Assembly (NCBI GenBank): GCA_947072665.1
Contig: CAMTIW010000006.1
Coordinates: 1 to 42,066, forward strand
Length of the DNA stretch: 42,066 nt
Origin: an uncultured Fusobacteriaceae bacterium
GTDB taxonomy: Bacteria; Fusobacteriota; Fusobacteriia; Fusobacteriales; Fusobacteriaceae
Reading direction: 5' to 3'
The translations under genes were made by a program, and so were the position numbers. Position 1 is the stretch's first letter, and the number at the start of each line of letters is the position of its first letter. Below the pieces are notes generated by a model, which saw only the letters and a program-made list of their open reading frames with translations, had not been told where the DNA came from and did not search any database. Positions 8,868-37,622 of this stretch are shown in pieces.

Positions 8868-10157
8868 TTATTTTTCAAAAACAGTTTGAGTTTCAACCTC
8901 AGTTGTAAGAGCTTTTAGTGCTTTTTCAACTATATGTCTTCTTAATATTTTTTCTTCATCTGCATCTATTAGAGGATTTCCTAATGGATAAGGTATTGCA
9001 AAAGCTGGCACAATTCTATTTGCTCCAACTGTTAAAGAGATTGGTACAACAGTGCAAATATGCACTACAGGAATTCCTGTTCTTTCTATTGCTTTTACCA
9101 TCGTTGCTCCGCAACGAGTACAAGTTCCTCAAGTAGAAGTTAAAATTACTCCATCTACTCCTGCTGCAACTAATTTTTTAGCAAATTCAGTTGCAAATGC
9201 ATCTGAACTTTTAACAGAAGTTCCATTTCCTACAGTTGTATAATAATAAGGGTATATTTCCCCTATTTTCCCTTCTGCTAACATATCTTTTAATACATCT
9301 ACTGGAAGTACTCTATTAGGATTTTCATTAACATATGTTGGATCGTAACCACCATGTGCTGTTTCTCCCATATTATCTATTGAGTATTCTCCATACTTTG
9401 AAGCTGAAGAAGATTCTATATGATCTGGATTTTTAAGTGGTACAATTCCTCCAGAAGTAACTAGCGCTATTTTAGCTTTAGATAAATCTTTTATTGCTTT
9501 TCCAGGTTCAACTCTATCAAATGTTGGCATAGCATATTCAGTTTCAAATACTTGATTAGAAAGTTTTTTTACTAACATATCAACAGCTCTTTCTGCTCCA
9601 ATTTTTTCAGCAAAATAATTCTCTCTTATTCCTCTTAATATGTATCCTTCTTCTTTTGGGGAACCTATTTTTTCTTTGTTTACTAATTTCTTTGCAAGTT
9701 TTGCAATAGAAGGAATAGCTTTTCTCATATCTGCTGCTGAATTTTTTGTTTCCACAATATATAAATCCTTTTTAAACATATCTGCACCTGGATTTTCTAT
9801 ATACATACCAGTTATAACAGGGATATTTAAATTTTCTTCTATGAATTTACAGATAGTAGCACAAGCAACTCCATATCTACCAGCATTAAAAGCTGGACCA
9901 GCAATTAATAAATCTGGATTTTCTTCCTTAATTAATTCTAAAATTTTAGCTTTAGCTTCTTCTAAATTTTCATTGAAATATGAGTCACCACAAATGACTG
10001 TTGCAACAATCTCACCTTCTTCTCCAAACTCTTTTTCAAGACCTAAACCAGGTCCAATTTTCCCAACTCTTTTTTCTGGTGGAATATGAGCCATTTCCTC
10101 TCCACCAATATTAGCAAAAAACTGATTTATATAGTGTACAATTCTTAATTTTGACAT
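8868..10157 (-). CDS. grdB: Glycine reductase component B, selenoprotein gamma subunit
   Basis: Substrate-binding selenoprotein of the reductase: it forms a Schiff base and passes the carboxymethyl group to protein A. The frame is interrupted by one in-frame TGA at 9129-9131 and continues to a TAA at 8868. Reading it as selenocysteine gives 429 residues with Sec343 in a U-G-T-C-T-R-C motif, the known active site of this family, and restores the usual length. A hairpin suited to SECIS function begins 12 bases after the TGA. Start ATG at 10155-10157. Sarcosine- and betaine-specific paralogues (GrdF, GrdH) share the motif; glycine is favoured because grdE, grdA and grdX are present and there is only one B paralogue. 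The piece after the TGA should not be annotated as a separate protein. Confidence 0.93.
9102..9116 (-). promoter_or_regulatory. SECIS hairpin of grdB
   Basis: On the minus strand CGTTGC-GGA-GCAACG forms a perfect six-pair stem with a GGA loop, 12 bases 3' of the Sec TGA. Distance and the G at the start of the loop fit bacterial SECIS rules (hairpin right after the UGA, guanine in the apical loop). Confidence 0.82.
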
Positions 10158-25710: not shown

Positions 25711-28700
25711 TTATATTTTACTTATATCAAAAACTTCTATATCTTTTGTACTTGTTTTACTTCTTTGAATTTTTATTATTGCATTTAAAGTATCCAGTGA
25801 AGTTAAAACATTTACTCCGAACTCTATTGCTATTCTTCTAATTTTAAATCCATCTCTTTGAGAATCATTAGCTTTTGTAGGAGTATTTATTAATATATCA
25901 ATTTTTTTATTTTTTAATAAATCTGATATATTAGGAGAAACATCTCCTATCTTCCCAACCTCTACACACTCTATCTTATTTTCTTTTAAATATTTAGCTG
26001 TTCCTTTTGTTCCATAAAGTTTTGTACCCATATGTGATAATTCCTTTGCCATTTCTAAAAATTCATCTTTATCTTTATCTCTTATTGTTAAAAGTATAGA
26101 TTTATTATTTAAATCAATATTTCTACCTGCAGCAACGAGTCCTTTGTAAATAGCTTCATCAACAGTTCTTCCCACACCTAAAACTTCACCAGTTGACCTC
26201 ATTTCAGGTCCTAATGAAACTTCTACTTTTCCAAGTTTTTCTGTTGAAAAAACAGGAACTTTAACTGCTATTATATTTGGTTTTTTATATATTCCAACTC
26301 CATATCCTAAATCTTTTAATTTTTCACCTAATATAACTCTAGTGGCTAAATTTATTACTGGCACTTGAGATATTTTAGATATGTATGGAACTGTTCTAGA
26401 TGATCTTGGGTTTACTTCTATTACATATATTTCATTTTCATAGGCTATAAACTGAATATTCATCATTCCAATTACTTTTAGCTCTAAAGATAATTTTTTA
26501 GCTATTTCAAGTATTTTTTCTTCTGTACCTGGATATAAATTTTGACTTGGATATATAGTTATAGAGTCTCCTGAATGAACTCCTGCTCTTTCTAAATGCT
26601 CCATAACTCCTGGAATTAAAACATCTGTTCCATCACATATTGCATCTATTTCTATCTCTATTCCATTTAAATATTTATCTATTAATACAGGAGTTTCTGA
26701 ATCTCTAATAAAAGAAGCTTCTAAATATTTTACTAAACTTTTTTCTTCGTGACAAATCTCCATTCCCTGTCCACCTAACACATACGAAGGTCTTACTAGT
26801 ACTGGATATCCTAAGTTTTCTGCTGTTTTTATTCCATCTTCTCTCTCTCTAATAGCCTTACCCTTAGGTCTTTTTATATCCAATTTTTCCATCATGGCTT
26901 CAAATCTTTCTCTATCTTCTGCCTCATCTATTTTATCTGCACTTGTTCCCAATATTTTAATTCCTCTTTTATGCAAATCTTTAGCTAGTTTTATTGCTGT
27001 TTGCCCACCAAATTGTAATATAACTCCCTCTGGTTTTTCTTTATTTAAAATATTCATTACATCTTCTGTAACAAGTGGCTCAAAATAAAGTCTATCTCCT
27101 GTTGTGTAATCTGTGGATACTGTTTCTGGATTATTGTTAATAATAATACTTTCTATACCCATTTCTTTTAAACATTTTATAGAATGAACTGTACAGTAAT
27201 CAAATTCTATTCCTTGACCTATTCTAATTGGACCAGAACCTATTACTACAACTTTTCTTTTAGTATTAACTTCAACTTCATCAAACTCATCATAAGTAGA
27301 ATAAAAATATGACGTTTCTGCTGCAAATTCTCCAGCACAAGTATCTACAATCTTATAAACTGGTTTTATACCATATGAGATTCTTTTAGCTTCTATATCC
27401 TCTTCTGATATCTTCATAAGTTGAGCTATTCCTTTGTCTGAAAAACCTTTTTTCTTTAAATTTCTTAAAGTTTTTTCTGAAAGTTCTGAGAATTTAGTAT
27501 GTTTCAATTTTTCCTCTTGTTTCACTATCCATTCTATTTTTTCCATGAAATATTTATCCATACCTGTTATTTTTTGAAGTTTTTCTTTTATATAACCTCT
27601 TCTTAACATTTCAGCAGCAATAAATATTCTCTCATCATCTGGTTTCATAACTAGAGTTTTCAATTCTTCAATAGTTAAATTTTTAACAGCTGGATGGTCT
27701 AAATTATAGCTTCCTATTTCAAGTGATCTAATCCCTTTTAAAAAAGCTGATTCGAAACTATTTCCAATAGCCATGATTTCACCAGTAGCCATCATCTTCG
27801 TTCCAAGTTTTCTATCTGCTTTTTTAAATTTATCAAATGGCCATTTAGGAATTTTAACTACAACATAATCTAAAGCTGGTTCAAAACAAGCAAAAGTTTT
27901 CCCTGTTACCTCATTTATTATTTCGTCCAATTGATATCCCAATGCTATCTTAGATGCAACTCTAGCAATTGGATAACCAGTTGCTTTAGAAGCCAGTGCA
28001 GAAGACCTTGACACTCTTGGATTTATTTCAATAATCGCATATTCAAATGATTTTGGATTCAGTGCAAATTGAACATTACAACCTCCAATAACTCCAATTT
28101 CATTTATAATTTTAATAGCAGATGTTCTAAGCATTTGATATTCTTTATCTGAAAGAGTTTGAGAAGGAGCTACCACTATTGAGTCACCAGTATGAACTCC
28201 CACTGGGTCAATATTTTCCATGTTACAAACTGTTATGCAATTTCCATTGGAATCTCTAACTACTTCATACTCTATTTCTTTCCAACCATAGATAGATTTT
28301 TCCAAAAGAACTTGTCCTACCCTAGAAAGTTGAAGACCTTTTAATAAAATTTCCTCTAACTCTTTGGGATTAGCAGCTATTCCACCACCAGTTCCTCCAA
28401 GTGTGTAAGCAGGTCTTACCACAACTGGATATCCCATTTCTTTGGCTTTTGCAAAACCAGCTTCCATACTTTCTACAATATGACTTTCTATTGTAGGTTC
28501 ATCTATTTTTTTCATTATATCTCTAAAAAGTTCTCTATCTTCTCCATTTTTTATAGCTTCTATTGGAGTTCCAATAACTTTAACTCCAAATTTATCTAAA
28601 ACTCCTTTATCAAAAAGTTCCACAGCAAGATTTAAAGCAGTTTGTCCACCCATACCAGCTAATATTGAATCTGGTCTTTCTATTTCAATTATTTTCTCTA

Positions 28701-28917
28701 GATATTCTAAAGTTATTGGCTCTAAATATATTCTATCTGCAACTGTTGTATCAGTCATTATAGAAGCTGGATTTGAATTTACTAGAACAACTTCAATACC
28801 CTCTTTTTTTAAAGTTTCACAAGCTTGAGTTCCTGAATAATCAAACTCTGCTGCTTGTCCTATTATTATTGGACCTGAACCTATTATTAAACATTTTTTT
28901 ATATTTTTATTTAACAT
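25711..28917 (-). CDS. carB: Carbamoyl-phosphate synthase, large subunit
   Basis: Makes carbamoyl phosphate from bicarbonate, ammonia from CarA and two ATP. At 1068 residues it is full length: the two homologous ATP-grasp halves begin with [20 protein letters not shown] near 11-30 and [17 protein letters not shown] near 560-576, and the C-terminal allosteric MGS-like domain ends the protein ([15 protein letters not shown] near 1010). The ATG lies two bases after the carA stop, so translation is coupled. It supplies both arginine and pyrimidine synthesis; its promoter arrangement here ties it to the latter. Confidence 0.97.
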
Positions 28918-28919
28918 TT

Positions 28920-29984
28920 TTATTTAGCCTCCTTAATAACTTTTAAAAAATCATCGAATAAATAATTTGAATCTTCTGGACCAGGCCAAGCTTCTGGATG
29001 ATATTGTACAGATGCAATATTTAATTCTTTACATCTCATTCCTTCATTTGAACCATCATTTACATTAATATGCGTCTCCTTCATTTTTTCAGGCATTTTA
29101 TCAATTACATAACCATGATTTTGTGAAGTTATAAATATTTTGTTTTTCTCTAAATCTTTAACTGGATGGTTACAACCTCTATGTCCATATTTTAATTTTT
29201 TAGTAGTTCCTCCAAGAGCCCAAGCTAAAAGTTGATGTCCTAAGCATATTCCCACTATTGGTTTTTTTCCTATTATTTTTTTTATTTCCTCTATAACATC
29301 ACTGAGTTCAGCAGGGTCTCCTGGTCCATTAGAAAGGAAAACACCGTCTAAGTCATGTGAAAGTATCTCTTTGGCTTTTATATTCCACGGGAAAACTGTT
29401 AAAGAACAATTTCTTGCAGTAAAATTTCTTAAAATATTATTTTTTACTCCAAAATCAATTACTCCTATTTTTAAATCTGGATTTTCTACCTCTATCTTAT
29501 ATATTTCTTTGGTACTTACATTTGGAACTGCTGATATATTTGAAAATTTTGAAAACTTTTCTATTATTTCACTTTGTTTCAAATCTTCTGTTGTTATTAT
29601 AGCCTTCATAGTTCCATTTTCTCTTATAATTTTTGTTAGATGTCTAGTATCTAAGCCTTTTATTCCAATAACATTATGCTGTTTTAAAAAACCATCTAAA
29701 GTCATTTCACATCTAAAATTATTTGGTAATTTAGCTTCTTCTTTTATAATTAAAGCTCTAACTTTTACCCCAGAAGATTCCATATCTTCTAAGTTAATAC
29801 CATAATTTCCAACTTGTGGATAAGTTAGTACCACCATTTGTCCAAAATATGAAGGATCAGTTAATAACTCTTGATATCCTGTCATTCCAGTATTAAAAAC
29901 TAATTCCCCTACACTTTCATTTAAGCTCCCAAAAATTTTTCCATGAAATATCATTCCATTTTCTAAAATTAACTTCCCTTTCAA
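28920..29984 (-). CDS. carA: Carbamoyl-phosphate synthase, small (glutaminase) subunit
   Basis: 354-residue glutamine amidotransferase subunit. The N-terminal domain has [20 protein letters not shown] near 29-48. The class I glutaminase domain has the nucleophile in [15 protein letters not shown] near 241-255 and the His-Glu pair in [10 protein letters not shown] near 326. Start is TTG at 29982-29984 after AGGGGGC; no ATG fits better. First structural gene after the attenuated leader. Confidence 0.97.
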
Positions 29985-30005: not shown

Positions 30006-30037
30006 AAAAAAAAAGATATAGCTAAATAGCTATATCT
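30006..30037 (-). terminator. carAB leader attenuator (intrinsic terminator)
   Basis: On the minus strand AGATATAGCT pairs perfectly with AGCTATATCT around ATTT, followed by nine T, ideal for intrinsic termination. It lies before carA, just upstream of its ribosome-binding site, and overlaps the last codons and stop of the leader peptide gene. A ribosome finishing the leader would cover the first arm and allow read-through. Confidence 0.88.
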
Positions 30038-30162
30038 AAAATATATAAATTATTAATATTTTTTAAAATAAAAAATTTATTTTTAAATGAATTAGAAAAT
30101 ATATTTTTAAAAATTAATATAAGATTGTTAGTTACTAATTTATCATCTATAAATTTTTTCAT
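30022..30162 (-). CDS. carAB leader peptide (46 codons)
   Basis: A short frame starts at ATG 30160-30162 six bases after a perfect GGAGGAG site and about 30 bases below the promoter. It encodes 46 residues rich in Phe, Ile, Leu, Asn and Lys (start MKKFIDDKLVTNN), with no known homology. Its mRNA is extremely U-rich, and its TAG stop lies inside the attenuator hairpin. I read it as a regulatory leader in the manner of E. coli pyrL: when UTP is low, RNA polymerase pauses on the U tracts, the ribosome catches up and blocks the terminator. Confidence 0.75.
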   Translation of the reverse strand: MKKFIDDKLVTNNLILIFKNIFSNSFKNKFFILKNINNLYILDIAI

Positions 30163-30197
30163 AATTTTCTCCTCCATTTTATTTTGCACTAGGATAG

Positions 30198-30225
30198 ATT
30201 ATACTTGATTTTTAATTTTTGTCAA
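30198..30225 (-). promoter_or_regulatory. Promoter of carAB
   Basis: On the minus strand consensus TTGACA (30220-30225) and TATAAT (30198-30203) with a 16-base spacer. It lies 29 bases after the fic stop codon and about 215 bases upstream of carA, leaving room for the attenuated leader. Confidence 0.88.
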
Positions 30226-30253: not shown

Positions 30254-31468
30254 TTACAATTTTTCTTTTACCCAACTAGTTAATATATGTTTTGAAGGTG
30301 TATGACTTATTTTTTCTATATATCCTTTAATTTTTAGTGAATTTAGGTATTTATTAAGTGTCACTCTAGAAGCTATTTCTAAATATTTCAAAATATTACT
30401 ATCTAATAATGTAAAATCATCAGAAAAAACATAGTTTTGAATGTAAAAAAATAGGATATCTTTTTCAACTTCTTTTAATTTTATATTTTCTAAGTAAGAT
30501 TTAGCGTGTTCTAACTTTAAAATCTTATCCTTCAACATAATCAAGATACTATCTTGACCTTTCAAAATAAATTCTAACATACCTTTAATAAAAAAAGTTA
30601 CTTCTCCACAGTTTCTACTATTGGAAGTTTCAGAGAACAGTTTTGAATAGCCTTCTTTATCTGCAAATATTGTATAGGATAATGATAACCCTGTATATAT
30701 ATCAATTTTTTTTGCTAAATAATTTGAAAATAATACTCTTCCAAATCTTCCATTACCATCGTAGAAGGGGTGAATGTATTCAAAATAATAATGAACAATG
30801 GAAACTTTTATTAAAGCAGGAATATCTTTTTTATTCATGAATTCTATTAAACTTTCCATATGAGATAAAATAAGCTCTTCAGATGGGTCTCCAGTATGAA
30901 TATTTTTAAATCCATCAGTTATATGAATTCCCTCTTTTCTAAAAAATTTTCCATCTAATTGATTTTCAGGATTTTCTAAAATATCTTCTTTAAATATTTC
31001 ATCATATATCTTACGAATATCTTCTGAAGAATTTATTTTATCTATTTTCCCCTCAATTATTTTTAAATATTTATTTATGATTCCAGATAATCTAGTATTT
31101 TTTTTACTGTTTAAACTATTATAAATATCTTTCTTTGTGGTTCTTACCCCTTCTATACCATTAGTTTTTATTATTTCATTAACCATTATTTCATTAATAC
31201 AGGAATATTTTCCAATGTTCGGTATTTTTTCTGATAATATAGTTATTTCTTTACTTTTCATAAAAATTTTTTCTTGTAAAATTTGAAATTCTGGAAATGA
31301 AAGATAAAAAAGTCTAAAAACTTCTGAAGAATTTCTCTTCCCTTTAGTTATAGGGTTTATTTCTAAATCAGTTACATAAGCACATGGATTTTCCAATCTT
31401 TTTTTTAATTCTTCATTTATATCATATTTTTTATAAAATAGTTTCTCCAAAGTTTGATAATCTTTCAT
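30254..31468 (-). CDS. Fic family protein (class II AMP transferase)
   Basis: A 404-residue protein with an N-terminal Fic_N-like region, a Fic domain and a C-terminal winged helix. The catalytic loop HPFYDGNGRFGR (about residues 233-244) matches the HPFx(D/E)GNGRxxR consensus, so AMP transfer to a target hydroxyl is expected. The inhibitory helix motif TNGIEG near 102-107 fits (S/T)xxxE(G/N) and lies N-terminal to the catalytic loop, defining class II. The winged helix (TLNKYLNSLKIKGYIEK near 370-386) suggests DNA or regulator contact. ATG at 31466 with AAGGAGG. Its target is unknown. It sits between the two divergent pyrimidine operons but has no evident mechanistic link to them. Confidence 0.9.
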   Translation of the reverse strand: MKDYQTLEKLFYKKYDINEELKKRLENPCAYVTDLEINPITKGKRNSSEVFRLFYLSFPEFQILQEKIFMKSKEITILSEKIPNIGKYSCINEIMVNEIIKTNGIEGVRTTKKDIYNSLNSKKNTRLSGIINKYLKIIEGKIDKINSSEDIRKIYDEIFKEDILENPENQLDGKFFRKEGIHITDGFKNIHTGDPSEELILSHMESLIEFMNKKDIPALIKVSIVHYYFEYIHPFYDGNGRFGRVLFSNYLAKKIDIYTGLSLSYTIFADKEGYSKLFSETSNSRNCGEVTFFIKGMLEFILKGQDSILIMLKDKILKLEHAKSYLENIKLKEVEKDILFFYIQNYVFSDDFTLLDSNILKYLEIASRVTLNKYLNSLKIKGYIEKISHTPSKHILTSWVKEKL

Positions 31469-31738: not shown

Positions 31739-31767
31739 TTGTTAATTTTACTTTTTCATGATAGAAT
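31739..31767 (+). promoter_or_regulatory. Promoter of the pyrBKDFEC operon
   Basis: TTGTTA (31739-31744), 17 bases, TAGAAT (31762-31767). It lies 34 bases before the leader peptide ATG and its GAGGGGG site (31787-31793). Boxes are less perfect than those of carAB. Confidence 0.65.
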
Positions 31768-31801
31768 TTTCCAAATATAAAAAATTGAGGGGGAATTATA
31801 A

Positions 31802-31987
31802 ATGAATTTATTTTTTAAATCAAAATTTATTAAATTTAAATCTGTAGTCTCATTTATCTTTTCTATTTTCCAATTTTATTTAGATAATTATATTTTCAAA
31901 AACATTAATTATATATTTTATTATAAAGAAAGAAGTGTCTTCTATGATTTTCATAGTCGTCACTTCTTTTTTTATATAATAAATTAG
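31802..31987 (+). CDS. pyrB operon leader peptide (61 codons)
   Basis: Small frame directly behind promoter and a strong Shine-Dalgarno. The 61-residue product (start MNLFFKSKFIKFK) has 15 Phe, all encoded by U-rich codons, and no recognisable domain. Codons about 43-57 form the two arms of the intrinsic terminator, and the TAG stop (31985-31987) overlaps the Shine-Dalgarno of pyrB. A ribosome close behind RNA polymerase would therefore prevent the hairpin and then be delivered to pyrB. Architecture matches a pyrL-type UTP-sensing leader; a true functional protein is unlikely. Confidence 0.75.
   Translation: MNLFFKSKFIKFKSVVSFIFSIFQFYLDNYIFKNINYIFYYKERSVFYDFHSRHFFFYIIN
31929..31973 (+). terminator. 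pyrB leader attenuator (intrinsic terminator)
   Basis: AAAGAAGTG (31929-31937) pairs with CACTTCTTT (31961-31969); an inner CTATGA/TCATAG stem with a TTT loop extends the hairpin past a small internal loop, and T7 follows. It ends 26 bases before the pyrB ATG and is fully contained in the leader frame. Confidence 0.86.
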
Positions 31988-31999
31988 GAGGTATTATTT

Positions 32000-33061
32000 A
32001 TGATTAATTTTATATCTATGGAAGATTTTTCAAAAAAACAACTTTTAAATGTTTTAGAATTAGCAAAAGAATTAAAGCATAATCCACAAACTAACCTAAT
32101 TGATAATAAAATAATAGCTACTTTATTTTTCGAACCTTCTACTAGAACTAGATTATCATTTACCTCAGCAGTGTATAAAATAGGTGGAAAAGTTTTAGGT
32201 TTTGATTCCCCAGATGGAACTTCTGTTCAAAAAGGCGAATCTTTAAGAGATACAATAAAAGTTATTGAAAATTATTCTGATCTTATTGTTATGAGAAACC
32301 CACTGGAAGGCTCTGCTAAATTTATCTCTGATTTCTCTACTGTTCCAATTATTAATGCTGGAGATGGTTCCAATGAACATCCTTCACAAACATTTTTAGA
32401 TTTGTTCACGATTTACGAAGAACAGGGGAGAATAGAAGGTTTAAAAATTGCATTTATTGGAGATTTAAAATATGGAAGAACAGTTCATTCTTTAACTAAA
32501 GCACTATCACTTTTTAACTGTGAATTTTATTTTATAGCACCAGATATAATTCAAATTCCTGATTATATCACTACAGATTTAGATAAAAAAAATATAAAAT
32601 ATAAGTTACTTAATGATTTTAATGAAGTAATAAACAATATAGATATTATGTATGTAACAAGAATTCAAAAAGAAAGATTTGATAATATTGATAACTATGA
32701 AGAAGTTAAAGATAGTTTTGTTATAAAAAAGTCAAATTTAGAAAAAGTTAAAGAAAATTTAATAATTCTTCATCCCTTACCTAGAGTTAATGAAATTTCA
32801 ATAGATGTGGATAATACAAAATTTGCCAAATATTTTAAACAGGCTGCAAATGGTGTCCCTGTAAGACAAGCTTTAATTGGAATAGCTTTAAATAAACTTA
32901 ATTTTGAAAAATTAACTTCTATTAATAAAACTATTTTATCCACTAATACTGTTATTTGTAAAAACTCAAAATGTATTGCTAAAAATGAAGAAACTGAAAA
33001 TAAATACATTCTAGAAGATGGTATTAAAAGTTGCTACTATTGTGGAAAAAAAATAAACTAA
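32000..33061 (+). CDS. pyrB: Aspartate carbamoyltransferase fused to a PyrI-type zinc domain
   Basis: Commits carbamoyl phosphate and aspartate to pyrimidine synthesis. Residues 1-about 305 are a complete catalytic chain: carbamoyl-phosphate site FEPSTRTRLSF near 44-54, HPSQTFLD near 131, HPLPRVNEI near 258, and the chain end QAANGVPVRQALIGIALNK. Residues about 308-353 match only the zinc-binding domain of regulatory chain PyrI, with Cys320, Cys325, Cys345 and Cys348 (CKNSKC...CYYC). The nucleotide-binding domain of PyrI is absent and no separate pyrI is seen. The ATG follows TAGGAGG, shared with the leader stop. First gene of the six-gene pyr operon. Confidence 0.95.
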   Translation: MINFISMEDFSKKQLLNVLELAKELKHNPQTNLIDNKIIATLFFEPSTRTRLSFTSAVYKIGGKVLGFDSPDGTSVQKGESLRDTIKVIENYSDLIVMRNPLEGSAKFISDFSTVPIINAGDGSNEHPSQTFLDLFTIYEEQGRIEGLKIAFIGDLKYGRTVHSLTKALSLFNCEFYFIAPDIIQIPDYITTDLDKKNIKYKLLNDFNEVINNIDIMYVTRIQKERFDNIDNYEEVKDSFVIKKSNLEKVKENLIILHPLPRVNEISIDVDNTKFAKYFKQAANGVPVRQALIGIALNKLNFEKLTSINKTILSTNTVICKNSKCIAKNEETENKYILEDGIKSCYYCGKKIN

Positions 33062-33110: not shown

Positions 33111-33920
33111 ATGTTTTTAGAAAACTGTCTTATTCTCGATAATTGTTCACTGGGATCTGAAAATTATCTATTAAAAATTAAAAGTAACAAATGTATAGAA
33201 AATTCTAAGCCAGGACAATTTTTTATGCTCAAATGTAAAAATGAAATAACAATTTTAAGAAGACCTATTAGCTTACACTATGTAGATAGAAAAAATCAAA
33301 CACTTGAATTTTATTTTGAAACTAAAGGAAAAGGAACTAAAGAATTCTCAAAATTAAAAAAAGATGATTTTATTGAAATACAAGGTCCTCTAGGAAATGG
33401 TTTCTCCACTGATACTAAAAATGAAAATATACTTATAATAGGTGGTGGTATGGGGATTGCTCCTATGAAACTCACAATTGAAGCTCTAGCTCAAAATAAT
33501 TATATCACTTTTATTGCTGGTGCTAGATCTCAATCACATATAAAAATTTTAGATAATTTTAATCTTGCTAATATACCAACACATGTAGCCACAGATGATG
33601 GTTCTTATGGTTTTCATGGAAATGTTATTCAAGTTTTAGAAAATCTTTTAACCCAGAATAAATATGATAAAATTTTAACATGTGGACCTCATAAAATGAT
33701 GGAAGCTCTTTATAATGTTGCTCGACGTGAAAATATAAAAATTGAAGTTTCACTGGAAGAAAGAATGGCGTGTGGTGTTAAAGCTTGTGTGGGCTGTTCT
33801 ATTAAAACAAAGAATGGAATGAAAAAAGTTTGTGCTGATGGTCCTGTCTTTAATGGTTATGATGTTATGGAAAAAGATTATCTTGTTGATTTTAGTGAAG
33901 CTACTATCTGTTGTAATTAA
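33111..33920 (+). CDS. pyrK: Dihydroorotate dehydrogenase B, electron transfer subunit
   Basis: 269-residue FAD/[2Fe-2S] subunit that passes electrons from dihydroorotate oxidation to NAD. FAD motif RRPISLHY near 51-58, nucleotide-binding IGGGMGIAPM near 109-118, and the cluster cysteines in ACGVKACVGCSIKT and KVCADGPVF near 223-250. It precedes pyrD by 20 bases, as in other type 1B systems. It is homologous to the N-terminal half of the Nfn fusion at 3698-6007 but the cysteine pattern here is the four-cysteine PyrK type. Confidence 0.95.
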   Translation: MFLENCLILDNCSLGSENYLLKIKSNKCIENSKPGQFFMLKCKNEITILRRPISLHYVDRKNQTLEFYFETKGKGTKEFSKLKKDDFIEIQGPLGNGFSTDTKNENILIIGGGMGIAPMKLTIEALAQNNYITFIAGARSQSHIKILDNFNLANIPTHVATDDGSYGFHGNVIQVLENLLTQNKYDKILTCGPHKMMEALYNVARRENIKIEVSLEERMACGVKACVGCSIKTKNGMKKVCADGPVFNGYDVMEKDYLVDFSEATICCN

Positions 33921-33940
33921 AAATTTTAGTGGAGGTTATT

Positions 33941-34855
33941 TTGAATAGATTAGAAACAACTTTTTTAGGATTTAAATTCAAAAATCCTATTGTAACATCT
34001 TCAGGTTGCTTTGGATTTGGACTTGAATATAAAAATTATTTTGATCCCAATGAACTTGGTGGAATAGTTGTAAAAGGATTAACTCTTGAGCCTAGAGACG
34101 GTAATTTAGGTACTAGAATAGCAGAAACTCCAGCTGGAATGTTAAATTGTGTTGGGCTTGAAAATCCTGGAATAGATGTCTTTGAAAATATAATATTAAA
34201 AGAAATAAAAAATAGTGGAATTACTTCTCCAATCATTGTTAATATCAATGGGAAAACACTTGAAGAATATATTGATATTGCTAAAAGAGTGGAAAAAATA
34301 AAAGGAATTGATATTGTTGAATTAAATATCTCTTGTCCCAATGTTAAAGATGGTGGTATGGCTTTTGGAGCTAATCCAGAAGTGGCTGGTCTTGTTACTA
34401 GAGAAGTTAGAAAAGTATTATCTAAACCACTTATTGTAAAATTATCACCTAACGTAACAGATATTGCATATATAGCTAAAGTTGTAGAAGAGAATGGTGC
34501 TGATGCAGTTTCTCTTATAAATACTTTATTAGGGATGGCAATTGATATAAAAACTAAAAAACCTATACTTGGAAATATTATGGGGGGACTCTCTGGACCA
34601 GCTGTTAAACCTGTTGCTTTAAGAATGGTCTATCAAGTTGCAAAAACTATAAAAATTCCTATTGTAGGTATGGGTGGAATTAATTCTGCTGAGGATGCTT
34701 TGGAATTTATCATGGCTGGAGCTACACTTGTTTCCCTTGGAACTGGAATTTTTATTAATCCTATTCTTCCATTGGAAGTAAAAGATGGACTGCTTTCATA
34801 CTGTAATGAAAACTCATTAAATAATATTCAAGATATCAGAGGCTGTATCTTATAA
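33941..34855 (+). CDS. pyrD: Dihydroorotate dehydrogenase B, catalytic subunit
   Basis: FMN enzyme, class 1B, oxidising dihydroorotate to orotate; works with PyrK. I place the start at TTG 33941, five bases after GGAGG (33931-33935), giving MNRLETTFLGFKFKNP and 304 residues; a GTG at 33929 would put the Shine-Dalgarno inside the gene. Motifs: SSGCFGFG near 20-27, the catalytic cysteine in NISCPNVKDGGMAFG near 130, IVGMGGINSAEDALEF near 240 and VSLGTGIF near 266 for phosphate binding. Confidence 0.95.
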   Translation: MNRLETTFLGFKFKNPIVTSSGCFGFGLEYKNYFDPNELGGIVVKGLTLEPRDGNLGTRIAETPAGMLNCVGLENPGIDVFENIILKEIKNSGITSPIIVNINGKTLEEYIDIAKRVEKIKGIDIVELNISCPNVKDGGMAFGANPEVAGLVTREVRKVLSKPLIVKLSPNVTDIAYIAKVVEENGADAVSLINTLLGMAIDIKTKKPILGNIMGGLSGPAVKPVALRMVYQVAKTIKIPIVGMGGINSAEDALEFIMAGATLVSLGTGIFINPILPLEVKDGLLSYCNENSLNNIQDIRGCIL

Positions 34856-34880
34856 AAATTTTAAAATATAGGAGAAAAAA

Positions 34881-35600
34881 ATGAATATATCAGATAAAAT
34901 AATTATAGCACTGGATTTTCCAACTACTGAAGAAGCAAAAAAAATAGTTGAAGAATTAGGAGATGAAGCTACTACTTATAAAGTTGGACTTGAACTTTTT
35001 TTAAATTCTAAAGGTAGTATGGTGGATTATTTAGTAAAAAAAAATAAGAAAGTTTTTTTAGACTTAAAATTTCATGATATACCAAATACAACTGCCATGG
35101 CATCTATCTTTGCAGCTCATGAAAAATGTTTTATGTTTAATGTTCATGCTAGTGGTGGAAAAAAAATGATGACAGAAGTTGCTAAAAAAGTTAAAGAATT
35201 TAACAAAGAAGTTCTTGTTATTGCAGTTACTATTTTAACTAGTATAAGCGAGACAGAACTTAAAGAAACTTTTAGTTCTACATTTTCTTTAAAAGAATTA
35301 GCTTTAAACTTAGCCAAAATAACAAAACAAAGTGGCTTAGATGGAATTGTTTGCTCTCCTTGGGAAGCAAATGACATAAAAAAAGAATGCGGACATAACT
35401 TTAAAACTATATGCCCAGGTGTAAGACCTCTTTGGTCTTTAACAAATGACCAAGAAAGAATTATGACTCCATACAATGCAATTTTAAACGGTTGTGATTT
35501 TTTAGTTATAGGAAGACCTATAACTAAACATGAAAATCCAAAACTTGGATTCAATCTTATTTTAGATGAAATTAAACTAGCATTACAAGTTCAAAAATAA
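34881..35600 (+). CDS. pyrF: Orotidine 5'-phosphate decarboxylase
   Basis: Last step to UMP. The 239 residues show the signature LDLKFHDIPNT near 60-70 with the catalytic Asp-x-Lys-x-x-Asp array, IALDFPTTEEA near the N terminus, and the phosphate-binding region ICPGVRPLW and FLVIGRPIT near the C terminus. It matches the short bacterial PyrF group. ATG with ATAGGAG. Followed by the longest gap of the operon (113 bases), which contains a hairpin. Confidence 0.96.
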   Translation: MNISDKIIIALDFPTTEEAKKIVEELGDEATTYKVGLELFLNSKGSMVDYLVKKNKKVFLDLKFHDIPNTTAMASIFAAHEKCFMFNVHASGGKKMMTEVAKKVKEFNKEVLVIAVTILTSISETELKETFSSTFSLKELALNLAKITKQSGLDGIVCSPWEANDIKKECGHNFKTICPGVRPLWSLTNDQERIMTPYNAILNGCDFLVIGRPITKHENPKLGFNLILDEIKLALQVQK

Positions 35601-35604
35601 TAAA

Positions 35605-35626
35605 GAAGAATATTTTATTATTCTTC
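35605..35626 (+). other. Stem-loop in the pyrF-pyrE gap
   Basis: GAAGAATA and TATTCTTC pair over eight bases around TTTTAT. No T run follows, so it is not an intrinsic terminator; a processing or stability element is possible. The word TTCGTATACA follows directly (35624-35633). Confidence 0.45.
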
Positions 35627-35713
35627 GTATACATTAAATTGTTCTATATTTAGCTAAAAACATTTGTTTCTTTATGTATATGTTCAAAAATAAAAATAAA
35701 AAGGAGTAATTAT

Positions 35714-36358
35714 ATGATAGATAATATTCAAGTTGCACAAGCTTTATTAAAAACAGAGGCTGTAAAATTAAATGTACAAGTTCCATTTACATTTGTTTCT
35801 GGAATAAAAAGTCCTATTTACTGTGATAATAGGAAAATGATAGGATTTCCTGAAGAAAGAAATATCGTTGTAAAAGCATTTATAAATAAAATTAAAGAGC
35901 TAGAAAAAAATGGTACTGATTTTGATATTATAGCAGGAACATCAACAGCTGGAATTCCTTGGGCTGCTTTTATCGCCATGGAATTAAATAAGCCAATGGC
36001 CTATATTAGAGGAGAAAAAAAAGCTCATGGTGCTGGAAAACAAATAGAGGGAGCAGACTTTAAGGGAAAAAAAGTTCTCATTATTGAAGATCTTGTTTCT
36101 ACTGGTGGAAGTTCTATTAAAGCTATAAAAGCAACAATAGAAGCTGGAGCTATATATACTGAAGTTCTTTCTATTTTCTCTTATGAATTTAAAAAGGCAT
36201 ATGATATGTTTTCTTTAGAAAATATAAAATGGTCCTCTTTATCTAATTTTGAAATTTTACTAAATGTAGCACAAACAGATAACTATATTACTGAAGATGA
36301 ACTATTAATAGCTGGGAAATGGAATAAAAATCCACAAACTTATGGAGTTGAGCTATAA
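35714..36358 (+). CDS. pyrE: Orotate phosphoribosyltransferase
   Basis: Transfers phosphoribose from PRPP to orotate. The 214 residues contain the PRPP-binding motif VLIIEDLVSTGGSS near 118-131, SGIKSPIYCDNR near 29-40 and the flexible catalytic loop RGEKKAHGAGKQIEG near 95-109. ATG after AAGGAG. It ends one base before pyrC. Confidence 0.96.
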   Translation: MIDNIQVAQALLKTEAVKLNVQVPFTFVSGIKSPIYCDNRKMIGFPEERNIVVKAFINKIKELEKNGTDFDIIAGTSTAGIPWAAFIAMELNKPMAYIRGEKKAHGAGKQIEGADFKGKKVLIIEDLVSTGGSSIKAIKATIEAGAIYTEVLSIFSYEFKKAYDMFSLENIKWSSLSNFEILLNVAQTDNYITEDELLIAGKWNKNPQTYGVEL

Positions 36359-36359
36359 T

Positions 36360-37622
36360 ATGCTACTAATAAAAAATGCTAAAGTTGTTGTTGGAGAATA
36401 TCTTGAAGCACTTTCTTTATTAGAAAAAGATTTAACTATTATAACTGATATATTAATTAATGATGAAGGTTTTATAGAGAAAATAGAAAAAAATATTAAT
36501 AGTCATACGAACAATAATACTATTCAAATAATAGATGCAAATTTTAATTATGTTATTCCTGGAATTATTGACCCCCATACACATATGAGAGACCCAGGTC
36601 TCTCTTATAAAGAAGATTTTCTTTCAGGAAGTAAAGCCTGTGCTAAAGGTGGAATTACAACATTTTTAGATATGCCCAATACAATTCCAAATACAGTCAC
36701 AGAAAATATTTTAAATGAAAAAAGAGAAAATTCTAAAAATCGTTCTTATGTTGATTATGGTTTCCATTTCGGGGGAAGTAGAAAAGACAACAGTATAGAA
36801 ATTTCAAAAGTAAAAAATTCTGTTGCATCAACAAAATTATTTTTAAATATGTCAACAGGTGATATGCTAGTTGAGAATATTGAAACAATTGAGAATATTT
36901 TTAAAAATTCAAAATTAATATCTGTTCATGCAGAAGATGAAAAAGTAGATAATGCCATTGAGTTTGCTGATAAATTTAAAACACCTTTATATCTTTGTCA
37001 TCTCTCTAAAAGAACAGAGGTTGAATCTTTAAGAAAAGCAAAACAAAATGGAATAAAGATTTATGGAGAAGTTACACCACATCATTTATTTTTATCTCAA
37101 GAGGATAGGAATGATTCTACTACAAAGGAACTTCTTTTAAGAATGAAACCTGAGCTTAAAAGTAAAGATGATAACCTTGCCCTTTGGGAAGCTTTAAAAG
37201 ATGGTACCATTGATACTATTGGAACTGATCATGCCCCACATAATTTAGAAGAGAAAATGAAATCTCCTACTTTTGGTATACCTGGTGTTGAGAACTCTTT
37301 AGAACTTATGCTTTTAGGAGTAAAAGAAAATAGAATCACACTGTATAAACTTATTGAACTTATGTGTAAAAATCCAGCTAAAATTTTTAATATATCTAAG
37401 AAAGGTGAAATAAAAATAGGTAATTATGGTGATTTAGTTATAATTGATACAGATAATGTGTATACTATCAATAATAAAGATGTTATTTCTAAGTGTGGTT
37501 GGACCCCATATCATTCAATGAAAACAGGTGGAACTGTTATTTCAACTATTTTAAGAGGAAATATTGTTTATAATAATAACTCTTTTTATGATATAAAAGG
37601 AAAAGAAATTAAATATTTATAA
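36360..37622 (+). CDS. pyrC: Dihydroorotase
   Basis: Cyclises carbamoyl aspartate to dihydroorotate. Amidohydrolase fold with metal-binding DPHTHMRDPG near 65-74, HAED near 183, CHLSKR near 208 and TIGTDHAPH near 287. I prefer ATG 36360, one base after the pyrE stop (420 residues, start MLLIKNAKVV); an ATG at 36342 inside pyrE has no Shine-Dalgarno. Long DHOase of the class I type. Last gene of the operon, closing the set pyrBKDFEC that with carAB covers all of UMP synthesis. Confidence 0.95.
   Translation: MLLIKNAKVVVGEYLEALSLLEKDLTIITDILINDEGFIEKIEKNINSHTNNNTIQIIDANFNYVIPGIIDPHTHMRDPGLSYKEDFLSGSKACAKGGITTFLDMPNTIPNTVTENILNEKRENSKNRSYVDYGFHFGGSRKDNSIEISKVKNSVASTKLFLNMSTGDMLVENIETIENIFKNSKLISVHAEDEKVDNAIEFADKFKTPLYLCHLSKRTEVESLRKAKQNGIKIYGEVTPHHLFLSQEDRNDSTTKELLLRMKPELKSKDDNLALWEALKDGTIDTIGTDHAPHNLEEKMKSPTFGIPGVENSLELMLLGVKENRITLYKLIELMCKNPAKIFNISKKGEIKIGNYGDLVIIDTDNVYTINNKDVISKCGWTPYHSMKTGGTVISTILRGNIVYNNNSFYDIKGKEIKYL

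Follow-up and report, generated by a model that had tools for sequence, protein, structure and literature searches.

Leader peptides and terminators before the carAB and pyrB operons of Fusobacteriaceae as probable UTP-sensitive attenuators

How is carAB, the carbamoyl-phosphate synthase operon, controlled in a bacterium in which a short, uracil-rich (U-rich) open reading frame (ORF) runs into a terminator-like hairpin shortly before the genes? The question is raised by a 42,066-nucleotide (nt) contig (CAMTIW010000006.1, assembly GCA_947072665.1; "the window" hereafter means this whole stretch) from an uncultured Fusobacteriaceae bacterium. The carAB leader and a second leader preceding pyrB-K-D-F-E-C are best explained as a pair of pyrBI-type transcription attenuators sensitive to uridine triphosphate (UTP), a reading to which we assign a probability of about 0.86 from sequence comparison and by analogy with Escherichia coli.

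The pyrBI attenuator of E. coli and Salmonella, with its pyrL leader, was reportedly described by Roland, Liu and Turnbough in 1988 (cited in PMC5021804). An antiterminator is not known in pyrBI. In the E. coli system, UTP-sensitive pausing operates together with ribosome coupling (PMC5021804). By analogy, and on the comparative evidence given below, we infer a UTP response and polymerase pausing in the fusobacterial leaders. With ample UTP, RNA polymerase would cross the U-rich stretch fast and leave the ribosome behind, so that the hairpin would form and transcription would end before carAB or the pyr operon. With scarce UTP, the polymerase would pause within the U-rich stretch, the ribosome on the leader would catch up and cover the 5' arm, preventing the hairpin, and transcription would continue into carAB and the pyr operon; the leader peptide would be a mere by-product.

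The whole carA control region, from promoter through attenuator, occupies 30225-29985 of the minus strand and is followed by carAB (Table 1). Here the first-pass annotation had reported a consensus promoter upstream of carAB, a GGAGGAG site with a 46-codon U-rich frame, a perfect 10-pair hairpin with a T tract, and a leader stop inside that hairpin, and all of these were borne out. The hairpin folds at -11.6 kcal/mol compared with -3.4 for shuffles (z = -4.7), and the TAG stop begins at the last loop base and finishes within the 3' arm. For the ORF, whose product is MKKFIDDKLVTNNLILIFKNIFSNSFKNKFFILKNINNLYILDIAI, the chance of a frame open from start to hairpin was 0.009 in dinucleotide shuffles. 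Measured with the same code, E. coli pyrL has 44 codons, a stop 44 nt past the hairpin start and 30 nt separating its hairpin from pyrB; in the window, the carA hairpin lies 29 nt before the gene.

A second leader with its own attenuator, missed by the first-pass annotation, precedes pyrB-K-D-F-E-C and is divergent from carAB, ~1.6 kilobases (kb) apart. Its hairpin (AAAGAAGTG...CACTTCTTT) folds at -22.7 kcal/mol (z = -7.9), and its stop overlaps the pyrB Shine-Dalgarno sequence. The carA and pyrB leader peptides of the window show no resemblance, and two unrelated leaders of one design on both of its pyrimidine operons are strong internal support. Downstream of the -10 box and ahead of the Shine-Dalgarno sequence, many carA and pyrB leaders of the window and its relatives have in common a pyrimidine-rich start region, then AG and an A-run (e.g., CTTYTYAG..AAAAAA), where further, initiation-level control is possible.

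Among the genes scanned, the U-rich design was confined to these two operons. As a control, the same leader search was run over 317 genes (the window plus 400 kb of a Cetobacterium genome) and returned 21 candidates, among which a late T fraction of at least 0.5 was found only for carA (0.54) and pyrB (0.50) of the window. The remaining candidates reached 0.40 or less, and most resemble the ends of ordinary upstream genes. No such leader was seen at the uraA-like uracil permease of the window's genome.

Frame statistics, based on 56 non-redundant leaders (median 44 codons, with 118 nt from start to hairpin), indicate that the ORF is real. Dinucleotide shuffles gave an expectation of 2.3 open frames out of 56 by chance, and stops before the hairpin numbered 0, 169 and 277 in frames 0, +1 and +2, respectively. 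The stop of every leader (56/56) falls either within 10 nt ahead of the hairpin or farther downstream, so that a ribosome positioned there would mask the 5' arm. Between relatives, insertions and deletions were multiples of three in 23 of 42 leader events versus 4 of 40 in the adjoining non-coding sequence (p = 1.6e-5), figures obtained with strict gap costs, as loose costs are noisy since AT-rich leaders align badly. Leader peptides differ between genera, and between carA and pyrB. A chance ORF is thus ruled out by the shuffles, the stops per frame, the insertions and deletions, and the gene controls.

Upstream regions of carA and pyrB were gathered from the family and the order and searched automatically for a leader with a terminator. 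This combination was detected on carA and/or pyrB in 53 of 61 Fusobacteriaceae genomes (carA in 51, pyrB in 40), and the same design was present in three genomes from another family of the order, giving 98 leaders overall. Conservation of the start, of the frame into the hairpin and of the hairpin, with a free peptide sequence, had been proposed in the first-pass annotation as a check, and this pattern held across the family. The nearest named relatives of the window's genome are Fusobacteriaceae metagenome-assembled genomes (MAGs), Cetobacterium, Fusobacterium mortiferum and Psychrilyobacter. In the Psychrilyobacter group, G042 and G046, pyrB apparently lies behind carAB in one operon, with a leader on carA only. 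Among the eight family genomes without a leader, three have PyrR, two lack a recovered pyrimidine-type carA or pyrB, and three form genus g12, whose carA genes, seen in G049 and G051, combine a strong promoter with a short untranslated region. Second carA paralogs, of a lower-identity type (47-49%), are leaderless in several genera; an upstream sequence resembling the end of argJ suggests that they serve arginine synthesis. Both carA copies have leaders in the genus of G027, G028 and G030. In one further genome (G067; L208, 720-840), carA is also preceded by an ORF with a terminator, yet this leader ORF is A-rich, not U-rich, and was left out of the set for that reason. A MAG labelled uncultured Clostridia (L119, upstream of 3001) contains a carA of 68% identity that is preceded by a U-rich leader, pointing to either a mislabelled fusobacterium or transfer.

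Throughout the family, this leader design appears to stand in for PyrR, the usual regulator. The PyrR model NF003549 scored above its curated cut-off only in G017-G019, a single genus in which the examined carA (two genomes) and pyrB (three genomes) regions have no leaders, and in which the canonical PyrR loop TCCAGAGAGGCTAACAAGGG occurs before pyrR and farther upstream of carA and pyrB. The 600 nt immediately upstream of carA in 79 regions, and of pyrB in 55, contained no PyrR-binding loop (TCCNGNGAGG). In the window's genome, the best PyrR match was 39 bits versus a cut-off of 138; because this genome is only 85% complete, the absence of PyrR rests on many complete relatives. Judged from these genomes, PyrR and the leader design are mutually exclusive within the family, because PyrR exceeds the cut-off solely in the leaderless genus and PyrR loops are missing near the carA and pyrB genes of the others. 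A PyrR-dependent attenuator is rejected, with neither PyrR above the cut-off nor a PyrR loop within 600 nt of carA or pyrB in leader-bearing genomes. At Clostridial carA genes (Table 1), a PyrR-loop-like motif, GGTCCTGTGAGGCCAGAAAGGAG, adjoins the Shine-Dalgarno sequence of a 20-53 codon ORF, and nearly all of these leader ORFs span a strong terminator ahead of carA. This arrangement suggests that PyrR may control translation of the leader ORF there, possibly as a hybrid mechanism.

What the leaders may sense is suggested by their nucleotide composition. In the family profile, the T fraction climbs from ~0.3 to 0.6 toward the hairpin. The T:A ratio at synonymous third positions was 193:92 in the late half of the leaders, 129:131 in the early half and 3237:4832 in the carA and pyrB genes, and therefore selection acts on the nucleotide, not on the amino acid alone. 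This U preference is left unexplained by the likeliest alternative, in which leader ORF and terminator are real and coupled but respond to a signal other than UTP, either ribosome-polymerase coupling in general (through growth rate or translation stress) or some unknown factor acting on the leader. Any change in coupling would indeed shift readthrough, and 56/56 leaders end at or in the hairpin. However, such a signal also fails to account for the restriction to carA and pyrB among the 317 genes, the leaderless second carA paralogs of several genera, and the complementarity with PyrR, and we consider it improbable.

Considerably less credible is the idea that the ORF encodes a small membrane protein, has a terminator of its own and precedes carA only by coincidence. 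The peptide is hydrophobic and is conserved in some groups (Psychrilyobacter), but the peptides are unrelated across genera and between carA and pyrB, each stop is placed at or within the terminator, and carA would need a promoter inside the ~30 nt after the hairpin. A housekeeping terminator fails the specific tests as an explanation of the leader ORF.

Attenuation by phenylalanine, in which scarce Phe-tRNA would stall the leader ribosome and allow an antiterminator, is the least plausible of these alternatives and is rejected on the codon-frame test and the missing antiterminator. Phe does make up 17.5% of leader residues and occurs in 56/56 leaders, but TTT/TTC codons are no commoner in the reading frame (276/1138) than in the other two (217/1106 and 290/1100), no upstream segment of the leaders pairs with the terminator arm beyond chance (mean z = 0.06), and the products of carAB and pyrB play no part in making Phe. 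Together, the synonymous U preference, the absence of a frame preference for Phe codons and the lack of an antiterminator argue against amino-acid attenuation and fit UTP-sensitive pausing of RNA polymerase coupled to translation of the leader. A riboswitch or other known RNA family is rejected for lack of any Rfam match, even at E values up to 1.

Some points weigh against UTP-sensitive attenuation. Neither a U-rich leader nor PyrR was found in genus g12 (G049, G050, G051); the carA hairpin stem of the window is AU-rich, with three G-C pairs; the leaders of related species, and hence the counts drawn from them, are not phylogenetically independent; and the ratio of nonsynonymous to synonymous substitution rates (dN/dS) among close leaders is about 0.5, leaving room for some peptide constraint, although the U preference also lowers this ratio. 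The pyrBI-type coupling proposed in the first-pass annotation is nonetheless supported by conservation across the family and by the failure of rival explanations; UTP-dependent readthrough, leader translation and pausing are its predicted steps.

The fusobacterial leaders share with pyrBI/pyrL an ORF of ~44 codons running into or through a hairpin, a terminator ~30 nt before the gene and a pyrimidine-rich stretch ahead of the hairpin. They differ in belonging to another phylum, with no evident sequence relation and AU-rich hairpins, in having the stop usually within the hairpin instead of past it, and in controlling both carAB and the pyrB operon. E. coli carAB, with the same genes and likewise controlled by the pyrimidine end product, relies on two tandem promoters, on DNA-binding regulators and on reiterative initiation rather than attenuation by a leader ORF (PMC6245113), in agreement with the first-pass statement that the target differs from that in E. 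coli. Bacillus-type PyrR attenuators likewise act by transcription attenuation before pyr genes, whereas sensing by the fusobacterial leaders would need no protein. Attenuators of the trp, phe and his type also combine a leader peptide with a terminator, but the fusobacterial leaders have neither control-codon enrichment nor an antiterminator.

The Fusobacteriaceae attenuators are probably convergent and independent of the enteric one; because leaders differ even between genera, descent from E. coli pyrL is untraceable by peptide. We offer only tentatively, with the odds somewhat against it, the wider account of an independently arisen, protein-free UTP sensor in Fusobacteriota that would govern the entire de novo route to pyrimidines by way of carAB and the pyrB operon, in place of PyrR, with the Clostridial carA leaders as a hybrid. 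No prior report of fusobacterial UTP leaders was found in the open-access papers searched, most subscription journals being outside the scope of the search. The main text of a Fusobacterium nucleatum transcript-map paper (PMC11005410) mentions neither carA, pyrB nor leaders.

Table 1. Positions of the pyrimidine control elements and genes in the window, with Clostridial loci carrying the PyrR-loop-like motif
Feature	Positions	Strand	Remarks
carAB leader-transcript promoter	30198..30225	-	TTGACA-16-TATAAT; 12/12 consensus match; equivalent promoters in relatives
Shine-Dalgarno of carA leader ORF	30169..30175	-	GGAGGAG
carA leader ORF	30022..30162	-	46 codons; ATG 30162 to TAG 30022; stop in attenuator hairpin
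U-rich part of carA leader	30038..30110	-	Proposed UTP-sensitive pausing zone, from composition, family profile and synonymous-site test
carA attenuator hairpin	30014..30037	-	Perfect 10 bp, 4-nt loop
T tract of carA attenuator	30006..30013	-	
carA	28920..29984	-	Carbamoyl-phosphate synthase small subunit; TTG start at 29984
carB	25711..28917	-	Carbamoyl-phosphate synthase large subunit
Candidate promoter of pyrB leader	31739..31767	+	TTGTTA-17-TAGAAT; TG ahead of -10
Shine-Dalgarno of pyrB leader ORF	31787..31793	+	GAGGGGG
pyrB leader ORF	31802..31987	+	61 codons; U-rich; spans whole attenuator
pyrB attenuator hairpin and T tract	31929..31973	+	Hairpin about 31929-31969
pyrB	32000..33061	+	Aspartate carbamoyltransferase; C-terminal PyrI_C-like zinc domain
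pyrK, pyrD, pyrF, pyrE, pyrC	33111..37622	+	Remainder of pyrB operon
Clostridial motif loci	~100-300 nt upstream of carA		L122, L124, L129, L131, L134, L135, L138, L141, L142
Further Clostridial motif loci	~100-300 nt upstream of carA		L145, L147, L150, L152, L155, L158, L163, L179

Other features of the window were recorded alongside these elements. The PyrI_C-like zinc domain of PyrB scored 20.7 bits, just below the cut-off of 23.4, and the PyrI nucleotide-binding domain had no match in this protein (32000-33061). A Fic-family gene (30254-31468) lies between the carA and pyrB control regions. Elsewhere, a SECIS_4 element (60.8 bits, 9091-9128) is located near apparent glycine reductase genes, and selenoproteins are likely.

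If UTP-sensitive attenuation is correct, it would provide a testable account of PyrR-free pyrimidine control in a whole family that includes gut and oral fusobacteria, and would extend UTP sensing through coupled transcription and translation beyond the enteric bacteria, where the mechanism was first elucidated. Because the mechanism depends on coupling, functional attenuators would also be natural evidence that ribosomes closely trail RNA polymerase in Fusobacteriota.
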